In this document: positions 4,556-58,898 of the stretch, in pieces | How the letters are laid out: every line of letters starts with the position of its first letter | Numbering within the stretch: position 1 is the stretch's first letter | Origin: Rhizodiscina lignyota | Taxonomy: Eukaryota; Ascomycota; Dothideomycetes; Aulographales; Rhizodiscinaceae | Length of the DNA: 64,000 nt | Direction of reading: 5' to 3' | NCBI GenBank assembly: GCA_010015805.1 | Contig: ML978121.1 | Location: forward strand, 1,736,001-1,800,000 | Position numbers and translations under genes: made by a program | Notes under the pieces: model-generated | The model's database searches: none | What the model was told of the DNA's origin: nothing | Seen by the model: the letters and a program-made list of their open reading frames with translations, nothing else

Positions 4556-5810
4556 ATGCCTGGAATTCCTGTAGAAGTCGTCGGGTCGCTTCCCCGGCCA
4601 ATGTGTTCGTTAAATGCAAATCGTCACTGCTTCGGACATTCACAACGCTGAACTTTGACAGATCTCCAGGAAGCGATTAACCAATATGATTCTGACAAAA
4701 TCACTCTGGAGGACCTCCAGGCGGCTCAAGACAAAGCGGCGCGCGACTCGGTGGAACGAATGGAGGAAACAGGTCATCCGGTGGTAACCGATGGAGAACA
4801 GAGAGCCTCATCGTTTGCTACCTATCCCATTATCGACACTCTGGGCGGCAAAGGTCTTGCCTCGAACCTTGTCGCAGATGGACAGTATTTTGCCATCTTC
4901 GACGATGGTCATCACCGACAATTGCCTCGTCTCGTGAGCGGACCGTTCAAGTACAGGACTTATGCCGCGGATTACCTGAAGAAGAGCAAGCCGTATGCAT
5001 CAAAGCCTGTGAAGCAAGCCGTCATTGCCCCATCAATGCTGTACTTGCTATATCCTCTCAATGGAGAAATAGAAGGGTATCCAAAAAGCCAGTTCGAAAG
5101 TGATCTGATTGACGAGTGTGAGAAGGATATTCGGCAATGTTTCGATGCTGGGGCCGTGCGGGTGTCGATTGACTTTACGGAGGGCAGGCTGGCTAAGAAG
5201 AAAGACAAGAGGAATCCATGGACCGGCGCGGATCTTCTTCAGACATTCGTCGACTTGAACAACAAGGTACTGGATCGATTCTCTCCAGAGGAGAGAAAGA
5301 ACATAGGGATCCACACATGTCCAGGTGGCGATTGTGACAGCGTGCATAGTGGAGACGTCGATTACCATGAGCTGTTGCCGAGCTTGTTCCAAATGAACGC
5401 TGGGTATTTCCTTATCCAATGCGCCAGCGAGAAGGAGAAGGAGAAGGTATACAAGGATATTGGCGCCAATATCCGGAAGGACGCAAATGGTGTCAAGCAG
5501 GTAAATGCTGGATTAATATCAACGCCGTGGACCTGCTGACTCAGTTTGAAAGGTTGCATTCATTGGAGTTGTGAATCCATTGAACCCAGAAGTCGAAACG
5601 CCTGAACAGATCCGTGACGCTGTGCTCGCAGCAGCGAAACATATCCCTACCGACCAGCTTGGGGCCACCGACGACTGTGGCTTCTCGCCATTTTCGATAG
5701 ATGTCAAGCCAAAGCACGGAAGTCCAGACTTTGCAAGAGATGTGGCGTTTCAGAAGATTGCAAGTCGTGTCAAGGGGGTACAGCTGGCGAATGAGGCGCT
5801 AGGACTGTGA
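4556..5810 (+). CDS. MetE-like (cobalamin-independent methionine synthase C-terminal domain) protein
   Basis: Three exons: 4556-4604, 4662-5500, 5553-5810 (introns 57 and 52 nt), 381 residues. The first junction (donor GTTCGT at 4605, acceptor at 4661) is fixed by homology: it joins GSLPRPM to YLQEAI, the standard opening of this family. The TIM-barrel domain of UROD/MetE type fills the protein. VVTDGEQ near residue 50 and IHTCPGGD near 240 are family motifs; the latter carries His and Cys at the positions used for zinc in true MetE. At 381 residues it lacks the N-terminal half of full-length MetE (about 760 residues), so it is a stand-alone C-terminal-domain protein. In fungi such proteins are usually annotated as methionine-synthase-like; the substrate is unknown. 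It is an accessory paralogue, not the housekeeping Met6. Confidence 0.87.
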
Positions 5811-6447
5811 ACGGGTTCGTGGGTAATATCATATATCGTCCTTCGACTTCAACATAGAACGTAGGAGCTCACAAGCAAATTCAACAGTTTGCATGAGATG
5901 TGCGAAATGATAGATTTATGGGGGACTGCGGTGCGGACTTATATCTAATCATCTTTGCTATTTCGGCAGTTGAACGACGATATCGTACGCGCTAGTCTGT
6001 TTCTTATGTTACATTTCAAGATAACAGTTGGTAAACGCTGTATCCGGCTTAGTCTCATTACTGTTTCGCGCTAGCAGGCTAATCCCTGCTTAGATTCGGC
6101 ATATGTTGGGGCAAACCGTGGGCGTGGGTAGAACGAGAATAATAACGAGGAGATTATAAGAGGTACGAAATAAGTAAAGAGGTAAAAGAAAGAAGAAATA
6201 CGGACGTAATATATAGAAGGAAGCGACGTATAAGTTAAATTTGTGAACTTATCACAATACGGAATTGGTATTAAACTTATCGATTATCCGGCACCTATCC
6301 CCCTTTTTATAGGCTCCGCGCTAGGAAGCCTTAGCAGTTGCCCTACAGAAGGGCCCGATGTTTTCCCGGCGCTGTGTGTGCACGGTTTTTTTCCTTTTTT
6401 CCTCTACACAAACCGAGCAGCTCTTTCTTCCTTCAATCCACCGAACA
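5811..6447. other. AT- and purine-rich intergenic stretch
   Basis: No gene supported. Bases about 6120-6240 are strongly purine-biased (runs of A and G with few pyrimidines on the plus strand), unlike the flanks. An ATG at 6359 opens a 30-codon frame that reaches the first clear intron donor of the next gene (6448), but its phase does not agree with the downstream exons. Confidence 0.45.
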
Positions 6448-6505
6448 GTAAGTAAATTCTGTATACGCTTGATATATATTAATAAAACTGACAATTGTTG
6501 CGTAG

Positions 6506-7916
6506 TACACGCCCGACGTATTCTGTGCTGAACACCAGCACACCCACGCTCAGCCTTATTACCGAGAAACCGTGTTAGCGCATGTGCTAAGCATATGCGG
6601 GATGGCGCACAACTACAGCGGCCCCAACGTGACTAACGCGACCAATCCGGTCAATGGGGTTTGGTTCCATGGTTGGTATACGCAAAATACCTGCGAAACT
6701 AAAGCACACTAAACATGTACAGGCCCTATACCAAACCACAACCCCGGCTGGCAGCCGACTGGTAGGTGTTTCTGTGCAAACACTACGCATAGCTGACAGG
6801 ATACACAGTGATCCAGAATTGGGTTGCCAACGGCCGAGCCGGCTGTGAGTTAACCTTTCGTTATAGGATACGCTATACATAGGCTAACGAAATGCAGCCC
6901 GCCCGAACATCGCTGTAGCCGACCACGCCCATCAATACTGTAAGGCTTTTTTTCTGCTAGCGTAGCGCACATCCTGAACCCATGCATAGTCCCGAACCCT
7001 GCTGAGGTGGTCAGTAAGGCCACAGTAGGAGTGTGAGTAAATACGTTCAAATGCATTGTGCTTGTACTGAGTATACATTCCAGGTGCATGATTGACGTTG
7101 GTGATAACGTTATGTGTGGAGTTGTCTTTGAGAACGGTCAAGCAAACGCTGCTGTGAGTATACTGAGCACGTATTGAGCGTATCGTATACTGAGAATTGA
7201 TACAGCTTCGCCGTCACTTTCGCACCGCGCATCCTGGTGCTGGTTAGTATGTCCTCTAAATATGCTTGCGTATGCTGAAAGCGAAAACAGTTCAGAATGC
7301 GACCACACAGAATGTCACCAACCAGGAAATGCTTGAGGCACAAAAGTCAGTACACATCGAGCATGTGCATACACATATCGAGCATATACTGACCGCTTAT
7401 AGTGCGCTCAAGCTGTTCGTGAGGTCCGGAACCTGGCGCGATGCGCTGTTCGGCTCTGAACCGGGGTGAGTATATCCCAATCAGACATTGAGCCAATGCT
7501 AATTGTGTACAAAGACGGGGCCCAGTGGGCGGACTAATCGATGTCTATGCCACTGAGATGGAAGCAATTGCGTAAGTCTGCCTGTGCTGGAAACATGCTA
7601 AGTATACGATATGCTGATCATGAACAGGGCAGCAGATGCGACATTTGCCGCTGCGTACGGCACTCGCTTCCACCGAGATGTAGGTATATGGTAATTGTCT
7701 TTTGATCATGTGCTGATCATGTACACAGCGACTCTGCCAAACCCGTGGCATCGGCAAAAGAAAGGTAAGTTTGCATATTTTCTGTGTGGACACATACTGA
7801 GCATGTGTATAGCGCGGCCCATCCCCGCCCGCAAGAAACCTAAAAATGACCATCACTTTACAGCTATAATTAGATGGCTGCTTGACAATGCTGGTGTCTC
7901 TTTTTTGGGGCGCTAG
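6506..7916 (+). CDS. Unidentified intron-saturated gene (5' end unresolved)
   Basis: No long open frame exists here, but a regular series of splice-like signals divides the region into about 13 exons of roughly 23-90 nt. Proposed introns: 6448-6505, 6572-6618, 6672-6722, 6762-6808, 6845-6897, 6940-6989, 7033-7083, 7154-7205, 7243-7290, 7346-7402, 7466-7514, 7572-7627, 7684-7728, 7765-7812. With these removed, one frame stays open from 6506 to TAG at 7914-7916, about 250 residues or more. It has several N-x-T sequons in the first half and a basic tail near the C-terminus (RQKK, RKKPK). I recognise no domain. The start codon was not found: the frame runs into 6506 in a phase that no nearby ATG matches, and the donor at 6672 (GTTGGT) is weak. 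Splice sites were chosen by eye, which inflates apparent openness. Confidence 0.5.
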
Positions 7917-8250
7917 AGTATGCTCATGACCAGCGCCTTGCATTATCAGTAATGTCGAATAGCGACAAGCCTCTACTGGCTCGTGGCCATGCTGAAGACA
8001 AGACTGATCTTATAGCACGATAGCGGGAAATGACTCTCAGGCATACAGCAAGACGAGACAGTCAAGGAATGTCCATACCCAAAAGCGTAAGCGTCTGTAG
8101 TTATCCTCGACGATAAATCACTATCAATTAAAGGCCTTTTGCCATGCACCAGGAGAGTATCTCAATTTGTCCTCTACCTGGCGCTATATCCTGTGACATT
8201 TCCTCCGCATTTGGACGAATTTGATACAATTTCCGCATTGCTCATTGCTC
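7917..8250. other. Short intergenic stretch between convergent genes
   Basis: About 330 bases between the 3' ends of the intron-saturated gene and the leftward transporter gene. I see no gene, RNA or repeat here. Confidence 0.5.
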
Positions 8251-10123
8251 TCAAATCATATACCGATAGTCTTTCGCCTGCCTCCTTGCCAATGCAATGT
8301 CAATCCCTTCCATCTCTGCCGTCTTCCTCAGTTTCGCAAGGTCCTCCTCTCTGAGCGGCACGTCCTCATTCTGCAGCGCCGAAAGATACTTGTTTTGGCG
8401 TTGAAGATACCATCGTAAGATAACCGCACAAATCAATGCAACGACTTGTAGCCCGATGCAAGCTCCCAGGGCGGGCCTATAGTCCGGGGGGTCGATGTAA
8501 GTGAACGGTGTCCAGATACTGGCAGCATTTCCGACCGAGTTGACGAAAGCGAGTGCAGCGGCACGCTTGGCAGGTGGACGAGGAATAGCATTCGCAATCC
8601 AAGCGTATATAATGCCGTTTTGTGCAAAGACGAAGATCATAAGGAACATGGAGAAGTATCGGGGGCCGAAAGAGCTTGTTGTCATGAATACAACAAAGCC
8701 GACGATCGTGATCGGGATCGGATAGACGAAGAACCAGAAGCGATGGTTAAGCTTGTCGGATGCCCAGGAATTGACCTAGAGACCTCAGCAATAAGAACCG
8801 AGATGTGTTAACAAGTTACTTACGAATGAGTAAATGACCATGAAGATGTAAGGGGGCGCCACGAGTAAGAGAGAGTCGATGTGATTGAAACCAAGCGTCG
8901 CAGTTAGGGTTGGGAAGAAGTTCTGGAATCCGGATGCGCCAGTAATGCCATGATAAGCAATGGCGAGCAAATATGTCTTAGGGTCTTTAAATGCCAGTTT
9001 ACATCCCGTCCATTGCGACATGCCACCCGGGAGGTCGACGTCGGCTTCCGCTGCGTCGAGGGCCAGACGACGGTTTGCAACGTGCTTCATTTCTGGAGAG
9101 AGACGACTCCAGGTATCAGGGAAGTCTGGAAGAATGAAACAGATGACGATTCCGATAAACATGGTGATGGCTCCTTCGATGACATAGAGCCATTGCCACG
9201 CAGACATCCCTAGGGATCCAGCGAGTCCGCTCAAGATACCAGCAGCAATGCTACACCAATATCAGAAATTGCTCATGGGAAGTGGTGGTGTTCACTCACA
9301 GATTACCGAAGGCACCGCTAAGCAATGAACCCGAGTAGAAAACTGCCATTCTGAATGAAAGTTCGCCTTTCGTGTACCATTTCGAAAGATAGAACAGCAC
9401 GCCTGCGAAGAATGGAGCCTCTTAAAGATTGTTAGTATCGCGAAACGCATTTGCTCAAACAATCTCAACTTACCAACGAGACCCAGAATAAATCGACATG
9501 CTACGATACCTCCATAACTCTTTACCTGGCTCGTCAGGCACGACACCAGGCCCCAGGCTATCACGAAAAAGCCAATGTACCAAGATGGCTTTCCGCAGTA
9601 ATTAAGCAGCAAGTTCGAAGGCACTTGCATCAGAACCTGGCCTCGGTGAGAAGTTGATTAGGATTCGAAAGGATTAGACTTACATAAGCCACGAAAAGGA
9701 TGGACAGACCAACTTGGTACTGAGTATTGTTCAGTCCAAGGTCCTCAACCAGTCCCTGCAATTTCGCCGCTGGCAAAAATATCAGCACCCTGGAATCCAG
9801 AAAATTTCAGTTTCGACGGTTATGGAGCTCATACCAGCATAGTTGTTCCTAGTATCGCACAGTTAGCGAATAGTTCAACACTCGGTTCTCGGGTTCGATA
9901 ATGAGACGTACCGATCAATATAGTTCATCAGATACACCAAGATAACCAGCGGCATAATGAGGCAGTCAATCTTGAAGCGAAGCTTTTTCTCCACCCCGAG
10001 CTCATGCTCTGAAAGCGCCATCATATGCAACGGCTCTCTCGACGGCGAGCCATTCTCGACCTGCGCCATATCAAGCTTCTCCCCACCAAGAATGTCGGAG
10101 TCGTGGACGATTCTGTCTGCCAT
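8251..10123 (-). CDS. Dal5-family MFS anion:cation symporter
   Basis: Seven exons on the minus strand: 10123-9912, 9848-9835, 9769-9684, 9636-9474, 9420-9300, 9250-8824 and 8775-8251, giving 515 residues. Exon 2 is a 14-nt micro-exon that completes the family motif YIDRNNYA after the first membrane helix. The protein has about 12 hydrophobic helices, a hydrophilic N-terminus of about 50 residues, and the ACS-family features MNYIDR, CRFILGLVEAPFFAG and WQWLYVIEG. These are typical of the allantoate/nicotinate/vitamin transporters (Dal5, Tna1, Vht1 relatives), plasma-membrane proton symporters for small organic anions. The precise substrate cannot be read from sequence. The ATG at 10123 is preferred to one six codons upstream. 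It is a stand-alone gene beside no obvious pathway partner. Confidence 0.9.
9835..9848 (-). other. 14-nt micro-exon of the Dal5-like gene
   Basis: The exon reads GAACAACTATGCTG on the minus strand and is flanked by AG at 9850-9849 and GT at 9834-9833. It contributes NNYA between the end of exon 1 (YIDR) and exon 3 (AAKLQGL), restoring a motif conserved in the family. Skipping it would shift the frame, since 14 is not a multiple of three. Confidence 0.82.
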
Positions 10124-11681
10124 CGTGAATTGCCTTTGCACAACGACTTGCAGAGGGAAACCGGCAGCGGGTCAGACCCTGGAGAACTGCGACTCTTTAA
10201 AGGGCACCGAAGATCCCGAGTGCCGTTGTCGCGCGCCTTCGCTACAAATCAGACCCATGGTCTTGTGGATCATTCAACTTACAACGCTTGACAAAGCTTC
10301 TTGGGGTTCTGTCCGTGTGGTCTGGGGTTGGATGGTTTGAGGAGTCCCATGTGCGGGGAACAGCCGATTTGCGTTGGATTTGATGCTGACCGGGTGAAAG
10401 AGGCGTGCATGGCCTGCAGCACTGGCACTCGGCAAGCCATTTTGCCATTTTACCAACCAGTGGGAGCTCGTCGCCGAAGCACAGAAGCTCCACGGAAGCT
10501 CCACTTGGCAATTCTTCCCCTTGATGCTTGCCGTTGAGGCATCTTCGGCGCGTTGAGGCTCTCAGCATGGGAATCCGAAATACGCGTCTGACCGGGGAGC
10601 CCTCCCATCCGTCCGCCAACACGGTATCGCGCGACCGATAAATTTGAAAGCATTTGCGCCGCAGTGACAGCTTCGGCGTGCACTGTTGGCAACGGGCGGC
10701 ACGCCGTAGCGGTTGTGCTGTGGTGCTCCACGTGCCATCTCCATGACCTCATGCCGCCGTTGGATCGCTCCACTAAAAGCGGCAAAGGAAGGTGTGGAGA
10801 AGAAGAGCGTGGAGATCTGCCCGTTGGCCTGTGGCGGCCAAGACGGGCTTAATTCCCCGCCAAGACAGCACAGGAGATAGGCCTGGTATCCGAAGCCTGT
10901 CGCTCGCGTCGCCGCTTTTCCGACGTCATCTCGTGATATTCAACTTTCCACCTGCGAGAATTAGACCTGATACGAACGAGTGAAGGTGGTTCGAGCCTCT
11001 CACCCGATCACATTTACCAGCCAGACCTCGCCTATTATGCAAATTTCGCTAATGCTCTTGGCGACGCAGGGTAGCCCAGGGACGGCAGTACTCCATATCC
11101 GACGCCCCGGTTGATAGACAAACAACACATGGAAGAGAAGGCTTGAAACACACAGATGTTCCGTTCTATTGGAATTTTCAGTCTGGGGTATTTGCACAAT
11201 AATTCCAACATTTATCCCCGTCCTGGCTCACTTCTCGAACCTTTACGTCAATTGAATCCCGAAACTGTCCATATAAGGCTCAATAACATCCGCTCATAAC
11301 TACGCATGTCTCGTTGAACAGCTGTTTTCATCGCTCCGCTCAAAATACATCTTTCCTTAAAGCACATCAGCTCATAGCGCAATAGTCGACTCTGAAACAT
11401 GACATGACCCGCTGGCAAACCTAACGTTGGCTTTATTGGCATTGAGAAGTATGGAAACAAACTCATTGCACATGGCTTCTCGTTTGATGTTCGAACATAA
11501 TATGACAGATCTGATTCTATATTCCACTACTGAAGAGCTGAAATGCAGGCTCGTCTATTCGTATACTGTGGGCAAGCTCCATGGACTGTAAGCATTAGAA
11601 CTTATGCTCTCTTTCGAACTTCTCTAGTTCACAGTCTGCCGTAAGACCACCTACTTCGTATTTCCTTCCAACTCTCTTCAC
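10124..11681. other. Gene-free 1.5-kb stretch
   Basis: Open frames up to about 126 codons occur on both strands near 10240-10850 but overlap in competing frames and are Arg/Ser/Pro-rich in the manner of non-coding GC-rich DNA. The left end holds the transporter promoter. Nothing else is supported. Confidence 0.45.
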
Positions 11682-57747: not shown

Positions 57748-58898
57748 CGTGTGTAGGCAGCGCCGCGAAGCGTTCAGGCACAATTGAATGTGGACTGATG
57801 GGGCAATTCTACGAACTGAATGTTAGATTGTGACTTGGTCTTGAGGTCGGCATTCTGATAATTAAGATGACTGATCAGGAAACGCAAATGTTTGCAAAAG
57901 CTATTCCGCAGCAAAAAGAGTACAAGTCTTTCTCGGACTGGTGCCAGCACGATTCTCATCATTCAATTGAGGGTAATCTATACGCAGGATGAATAGTAGC
58001 TTTGTGATTCACTCACCTGGAGTCTATGCGCGTGTGAGATATTCAGCGAGAGAGATTCCGGAATACAGAAACGCCTTGATCGCCAGAAAGAAAGCCGAGA
58101 TGTTGTGGGATGTTTGATGGATTTCCTGGTGGAGGCTGTAGAAAGTGCTAGATTAATTGCATGGATTCCATGCCGGTGCACATCGGTGCGCTTAATGTTC
58201 CGATGCCAGGGTTAGGGTTTGCAAACGAGCTAGCGTGAACAGAAATTCATCCTTCCGTTCAACCTCTTGTTCATTCGCTCTGTCTTCTACAATCGTACCT
58301 GATCTACTCTTAAGACTATCCCTCGATTATTATTATGTTAATGAAAACCTTCCCTTATATACTTAGTATATAGATGTGCCGGAAGATTTAACTTAACAAC
58401 GTAGGAAGGTTCATCTGCCCGTAGAGAGCTCGACGCTTGAAAGGCGAAAGTGAGTAGGAGAGCTGTTAGATGCGAATAGCGCGTATTAAACGTCTCTTCC
58501 CGCGTTCGGCGACAATGTTCCATTTGTGGTCTTGAGCTGGGTATGCACGTTTGCATTTGAGACAAGAACAAACTGACGATATTGAGTGTGGAGACGTTCT
58601 TCGCAATGGCGGCTTCACAATTTTTCAGTCATACATTCAGTAGCATGAGAAACAAACAAGAAAGAAAGAGGAGTCCCAGACAAAGAGTGAAGAAAATCTC
58701 TTAAGTTTGGGTGCAAGCAGCTCTGCCCTGCTCCTGCCTGTCTTTTTCGCTATCACGTCGTAAATGCCAAATCGGGTTGAAATCTGAGATTGCAACCTTT
58801 CTCTCATTACGATTTTCATCTTGATTCAACCATAGGCACTGCCACCGTCGTCTCACTCTGATCTTCTTTCACAGTGGTGTTCCACTTCTGGGTTGGGA
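57748..58898. promoter_or_regulatory. Divergent promoter region, AHA1 / CAS1-type gene
   Basis: 1.15 kb between start codons pointing away from each other. No gene is supported; frames at 58338-58571 and 58637-58819 on the minus strand lack features. Contains a telobox-like motif. Confidence 0.5.
58208..58220. promoter_or_regulatory. Telobox-like motif (AGGGTTAGGGTTT)
   Basis: Two copies of the telomeric unit TTAGGG in one 13-bp block in a divergent promoter. It is a stronger match than the one at 18681-18690 and has the same spacing to start codons (hundreds of bases). Binding by a Tbf1-like Myb protein is possible. Confidence 0.4.

Follow-up and report, generated by a model that had tools for sequence, protein, structure and literature searches.

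Among the closest described systems are the bacterial alpha-amylase genes that moved into Basidiomycetes, for which excerpts of the published report give 13.3 introns per gene on average and up to 22, compared with 3.8-5.7 (PMC3584928). The gene described here, from the ascomycete Rhizodiscina lignyota, resembles them in being a single gene with many short introns, far over the genome average. The amylases are a known enzyme for which the same excerpts report intron gain after transfer (PMC3584928), whereas the present gene is small, encodes a protein of no known family, has a native GC3 and was seen in no intron-poor form. Introner-like elements likewise represent introns gained in fungal genes, sometimes two per gene, and in the excerpted reports they form families whose similar members are distributed among many genes (PMC4457414; PMC9860276), whereas no outside relatives of the 13 introns were detected. 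A repeat expansion in Cryptococcus also added more than one intron to one gene, two in that case, by a mechanism that, according to the excerpted report, needs repeated DNA (PMC2395259); such DNA was not seen in the 13-intron gene but is present at two other loci of the same genome, L051 and L050. Aphid bicycle genes likewise have many micro-exons and little detectable sequence homology, but they form an insect family in which, as excerpts of their description state, many members have signal sequences and CYC motifs (PMC9168663), whereas the locus studied here is a single fungal gene with no obvious signal peptide.

The best explanation of this locus, which is considered probable, is a genuine protein gene present in one copy, whose 13 very short introns are spliced by intron definition and would have been acquired by successive gains. 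An earlier note, made by eye, had described a many-intron gene of exceptional density and of no known family that might be newly acquired; the first three parts of this interpretation have held, and the last is not supported.

The intron chain

The window, that is the whole stretch of DNA that was analysed, comprises 64,000 nucleotides (C1:1736001-1800000; the genome measures 33.4 Mb in 29 contigs). The locus is flanked by two genes that we label from their translations, one methionine-synthase-like (4652-5810) and one transporter-like (8251-10171, minus strand). A coding and splice-site model trained on 264 kb (the window plus 20 stretches of 10 kb, about 0.8% of the genome), with positions 6400-8000 masked, yielded a chain of 13 introns at 6445-7850 with a score of 81.9, compared with a best score of 13.3 and at most four introns in 300 dinucleotide shuffles of the locus. 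These introns have GT-AG ends and lengths of 45-58 nt, as had been described by eye, and they leave fourteen mostly tiny exons. The features are listed below; introns marked as found blind were also regained by a model that sees neither frame nor coding signal.

6448-6505, plus strand: intron 1, 58 nt, GTAAGT...TAG, score +5.9, found blind; probably in the 5' leader
6602-6671, plus strand: first coding part, beginning with ATG 6602, within exon 6506-6671
6672-6722, plus strand: intron 2, 51 nt, GTTGGT...CAG, score +0.8, found blind
6762-6808, plus strand: intron 3, 47 nt, score +6.0, found blind
6845-6897, plus strand: intron 4, 53 nt, score +5.7, found blind
6940-6989, plus strand: intron 5, 50 nt, GTAAGG...TAG, score -0.1, not found blind
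7033-7083, plus strand: intron 6, 51 nt, score +4.7, found blind
7085-7232, plus strand: C2H2-zinc-finger-like motif C-x9-C-x15-H-x4-H, complete only once intron 7 is removed
7154-7205, plus strand: intron 7, 52 nt, phase 0, within the finger, score +3.1, found blind
7243-7290, plus strand: intron 8, 48 nt, score +2.8, found blind
7346-7402, plus strand: intron 9, 57 nt, score +6.5, found blind; a multiple of three without in-frame stop if retained
7466-7514, plus strand: intron 10, 49 nt, score +6.1, found blind
7572-7627, plus strand: intron 11, 56 nt, score +7.9, found blind
7680-7728, plus strand: intron 12, 49 nt from donor 7680 or 45 nt from donor 7684, donor scores 6.8 and 6.9
7765-7812, plus strand: intron 13, 48 nt, score +7.3, found blind
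7813-7869, plus strand: last coding exon of the 218-aa form, stop ending at 7869

All 13 belong to the U2-type short fungal class, with GT-AG ends, a CTRA-type branch site and a length of about 50 nt, as in other genes here (median intron length in the genome sample, 55 nt). The branch site lies 11-15 nt upstream of the acceptor; the distances in 97 other introns span these values and peak at 11-13 nt. The model blind to frame and coding regained 12 of the 13 introns with a score of 62.1, compared with a maximum score of 29.2 and a maximum of six introns in 324 other 1481-nt segments covering both strands of the sample. The one intron that it missed, 6940-6989, has the weakest signal of all; its removal fuses two open frames, and it was placed with the frame in view. 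The intron penalty was set at -16, training without a strong penalty having led to meaningless chains; at -20 the chain shrinks to six introns (7201-7850), and at -24 no chain scoring at least 25 is among those listed at the locus.

The observation of the intron chain is confirmed, and the description by eye, a gene of small exons separated by 13 very short introns, is supported by the masked recovery, by the 12 introns regained blind and by the 252 codons left open after intron removal. Confidence in the introns is far higher than in the frame alone, because free splice-site choice opens shuffled exons as well and because the 12 blind introns leave only 171 open codons. When splice sites were chosen freely without a coding model, at least 13 introns could be chained in 166 of 300 exon-shuffled versions (score of the real sequence 62.05, compared with at most 61.6 in all 300 versions), and the caution in the earlier note, that openness may partly reflect splice sites picked by eye, was right in so far as it concerns the frame alone.

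Several other readings of the locus were rejected. The minus strand at 6506-7916 contains five stop-to-stop open reading frames of 93-154 aa, and a minus-strand gene was rejected, as the model yields no minus-strand chain scoring at least 15 at the locus. A mobile element was rejected, as a genome search at E-values up to 10, which skips very common words, gave no second copy of the region 5800-8300 and none of 14 inverted-repeat pairs has arms flanking the gene on both sides. A snoRNA host gene was likewise rejected, since no Rfam family is found at the locus at the gathering threshold. Elsewhere in the window, two snoRNA genes of families known from fungi lie about 530 nt apart, Afu_190 (C/D box, 57874-57964, minus strand) and snR36 (H/ACA box, 58490-58638, plus strand), and no tRNA gene was found in the window by ARAGORN.

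Reading frame and predicted protein

The longest stop-free run on the plus strand overlapping 6506-7916 measures 73 codons. Removal of all 13 introns opens 252 codons, in agreement with the approximately 250 counted by eye, a length that 3 of 5000 shuffled spliced sequences also attain; removal of the 12 blind introns only leaves open stretches of 104 and 171 codons, the longer of which is reached by 131 of 5000 shuffles. The best coding segment scores 26.1, as high as none of 2000 shuffles (shuffle maximum 17.6). The coding strength, about 0.033 bits per nt (21.4 bits in 654 nt), is close to the lowest among other genes, which average 0.058 and go down to 0.031, and three coding exons, including the last two, score slightly negative.

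The most likely translation start is ATG 6602. Intron 1 probably sits in the 5' untranslated leader, because the coding score is +4.4 bits in 6602-6671 and negative both in 6506-6601 (-3.2) and in 6358-6447 (-8.5); the in-frame ATG farther upstream, at 6358, whose reading begins with hydrophobic residues, was rejected on the latter score, the segment being in addition pyrimidine-rich. The leader carries at 6581-6594 the sequence CATGTGCTAAGCAT, which agrees at 12 of 14 positions with part of intron 12 (repeat family D8) and is perhaps an intron remnant or a chance likeness. At the other end of the gene, the two donors of intron 12 lie 4 nt apart and lead to two C-termini, one of a 218-aa protein (donor 7680, stop 7869) and one of a 235-aa protein (donor 7684, stop 7916, the gene end given in the earlier note). 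The blind model picks 7680, and the model with frame and coding picks 7684. Coding exons measure 36-70 nt in the 218-aa form, and the last exon of the 235-aa form measures 104 nt.

No match was found for the whole predicted protein in Pfam, NCBIfam or PDB, or for the 235-aa form and pieces of the protein in Pfam (the whole protein and the finger piece up to an E-value of 10), and the finger piece gave one chance-level row in PDB, with an E-value of 2.2. The statement that the protein matches no known family is borne out for these three databases, and a C2H2-like motif can now be added to it. Genome searches with the protein, the finger pattern and the DNA gave no paralogue or second copy, and no relatives were found in the prokaryotic and viral contig collections GTDB and IMG/VR, as expected for non-fungal sets.

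The finger-like motif is formed across the junction between the exon that ends at 7153 and the one that starts at 7206, with hydrophobic F and L in zinc-finger positions. Its loose core pattern, which was defined after the motif had been seen, occurs in 3.5e-5 of 200000 shuffled proteins. The classical C2H2 spacing is shorter than that of the motif, and neither the whole protein nor the finger piece matches a zf-C2H2 profile in Pfam at E-values up to 10. The protein has a net charge of +6, basic stretches near its C-terminus that we take to resemble nuclear-localisation signals, and N-terminal residues that are not hydrophobic, with no obvious signal peptide. A nuclear, nucleic-acid-binding role of the protein may be inferred.

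The frame is supported by its openness, its coding score and the finger motif taken together. A spliced non-coding RNA or a decaying gene, in which the introns would be real and the frame accidental, would accommodate introns that are better supported than the frame, a low coding score and a protein of no Pfam family. This alternative is considered unlikely in view of the shuffles mentioned above (0 of 2000 for coding score, 3 of 5000 for openness), of a finger-like motif that continues in frame over an exon junction, and of the lack of an Rfam family at the locus at the gathering threshold.

Intron density and the origin of the introns

The 13 introns lie in 741 nt, which corresponds to about 17.5 per kb, and 12 of them lie in 654 coding bases. 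For 61 other chains scoring above 50 in the window and the sample, the density is at most 6.3 introns per kb, so that the density of several times that of every other gene in the window, as claimed by eye, extends to the sample as well. Thirteen further loci (39 kb, L036-L048) contain four chains with at least four introns, at 1.6-3.5 per kb. According to excerpts of one survey, mean density in the densest fungal genome is 4.5 introns per kb, and for reconstructed fungal ancestors the values go up to 7.6 per kb (PMC8476143). Among the papers listed by searches of an open-access library, no report of a comparable ascomycete gene was found, which is not proof of absence.

One alternative is that the gene was horizontally acquired, introns included, from a more intron-dense fungus, for instance a basidiomycete. 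The introns are AT-richer than those of 19 other genes (GC 0.38, compared with a mean of 0.471 and a minimum of 0.386), and no paralogue was found, both of which would be consistent with transfer. However, GC3 is the same as in host genes, and since the densest genome in the excerpted survey averages 4.5 introns per kb (PMC8476143), about 17.5 per kb would be unusual in a donor too; this scenario is considered very unlikely. The codon-position GC values are 0.624, 0.491 and 0.596, the last of which compares with a GC3 of 0.603 (sd 0.055) in 61 other modelled genes. As this native GC3 does not indicate a recent foreign origin, the suggestion that the sequence was newly acquired is not supported, and the gene is most likely not a recent foreign arrival.

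The 13 introns are more alike than expected. Their mean pairwise likeness is 7.53, compared with 6.26 (sd 0.21, maximum 7.05) in 500 sets of 13 other introns, with 6.56 (sd 0.22, maximum 7.24) in 1000 sets of AT-rich introns of other genes, none of which reaches the observed value, and with 6.78 in 1000 sets drawn from the 26 introns richest in AT (maximum 7.44). Pairs scoring at least 11 amount to 7 of 78 among the 13 introns, compared with 8 of 325. The likeness is mainly located near the branch point: it is 6.15 in the 3' part, compared with 5.02 (sd 0.22), and near background in the 5' part (5.26, compared with 4.89, sd 0.19). A CATG between branch site and acceptor, a feature chosen post hoc, is present in 5 of the 13 introns and in 1 of 97 others. 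For the 16-base 3' motif CTGAKCATGTRYAYAG, the genome contains two exact matches, both at this locus, and 15 matches with at most one mismatch (including the two exact ones), compared with 11 for reversed-pattern controls. Exons are not mutually alike (6.29, compared with 6.33, sd 0.14), and introns show no clear resemblance to exons (5.87, compared with 5.74, sd 0.10).

This pattern bears on a scenario of intragenic multiplication, in which several introns would be diverged copies of one another and form a gene-private introner, its spread being due, for instance, to reverse splicing into the gene's own transcript followed by conversion. The likeness that tops all composition-matched sets, the excess of high-scoring pairs, the post hoc CATG and the location of both exact matches of CTGAKCATGTRYAYAG inside the gene would be explained by it. 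The likeness is, however, mostly 3', neighbouring introns are barely more alike than distant ones, and selection for a common branch-point context could yield the same signal, so the scenario is regarded as a tentative possibility. Its stronger version, in which all 13 introns were multiplied inside the gene as a locus-private family of one self-copying intron, with neither exon duplication nor spread in the genome, is doubtful. Intragenic multiplication concerns the origin of the introns and is compatible with the best explanation, a real protein gene with 13 introns.

An origin of the introns from a multicopy, genome-wide family of introner-like elements is regarded as extremely unlikely. 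Introner-like elements have a stable predicted secondary structure. Folding of the present introns is on average little more stable than that of other introns (mean z -0.59, compared with -0.08 in 97 other introns), with introns 9, 13 and 10 at z -3.4, -2.8 and -2.0 and the other ten between -1.4 and 1.2. The 2.5-kb region has no second genome match at E-values up to 10, in a search that skips very common words, and the 3' motif occurs elsewhere at control level. In favour of such elements, excerpts of a published description place them in Pezizomycotina and describe them as having neither terminal repeats nor target duplications (PMC9860276).

That an intron-bearing coding repeat expanded in tandem likewise appears hardly credible for this gene, despite the existence of such loci in the genome. 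Its exons are not alike, as noted above, and the protein has no internal repeat (best score 23.0, equalled in 95 of 100 shuffles). Taken together, these results disfavour both repeat expansion and genome-wide introners, and leave independent gains or copying within the gene.

The loci with tandem units were found in a targeted search based on patterns of closely spaced donors, which was insensitive: two patterns missed the 13-intron gene itself, and a third caught only its intron 10-11 pair. Both L051 and L050 consist of tandemly repeated intron-bearing units and are, as modelled, denser than the 13-intron gene. L051 (G000 C4:2470701-2472300, minus strand, about 1342-590) has eight predicted introns in 348 coding nt, or 23 per kb; the short introns are borne by the repeats, and some coding exons measure only about 20 nt. 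Read by eye, it is a multi-core repeat precursor of the Kex2 type with a hydrophobic start and Kex2-like KR sites. Among the matches listed, none to the UstYa family lies within 250 kb of L051 on its contig. The genome as a whole has 76 UstYa (PF11807) matches, counted by exon and not by gene and in several cases clustered, which suggests a large UstYa repertoire. L050 (G000 C12:154801-156400, minus strand, about 922-594) is modelled with six introns of 42-62 nt and 237 coding nt, and a 53-nt tandem unit was detected in it; by eye, with cuts differing from those of the model, it contains six similar intron-like stretches of 38-43 nt in tandem, 10-20 nt apart. It may be a micro-exon array or a single intron with repeated splice signals. 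According to these models, L051 and L050 would show another route to intron-dense loci in this genome, namely tandem intron-bearing units. In addition, three donor-like sites at micro-exon spacing, from overlapping pattern matches, were noted at G000 C7:1417814-1418001 on the minus strand.

Splicing and significance of the 13-intron gene

The pre-mRNA of the 13-intron gene would contain one very short U2-type intron in its 5' leader, and a further 12 would separate coding exons that measure 36-70 nt. Intron definition would act on every intron singly, through a donor close to the consensus, a CTRA branch site 11-15 nt upstream of the acceptor and a total length of 45-58 nt, and such small exons would be tolerable as a consequence. 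Once spliced, the mRNA would encode a small, basic protein (218 or 235 aa) with one C2H2-like motif and a basic C-terminus; expression of the gene is presumed. In the retention test, the 218-aa form acquires an in-frame stop from 11 of its 12 coding introns, and the 235-aa form from 10 of 12. With stops in 11 of 12 retained introns, partly spliced RNA is expected to undergo nonsense-mediated decay, and output of the gene would need complete splicing.

As for origin, the predicted history is one of successive intron gains in a single gene, some of them perhaps by intron copying inside it. Gain in bursts, as had been proposed, is plausible, as the introns are more alike than composition-matched introns, though unproven.

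Spliceosomal intron gain is an old open question, with repeat expansions and genome-wide introner families among its clear cases. This gene, in which 12 introns interrupt 654 coding bases, brings together many putative gains, and comparison with related strains or species could reveal when and in which order they arose. The gene also tests the limits of intron definition with exons of 36-70 nt, as well as possible regulation via splicing efficiency.
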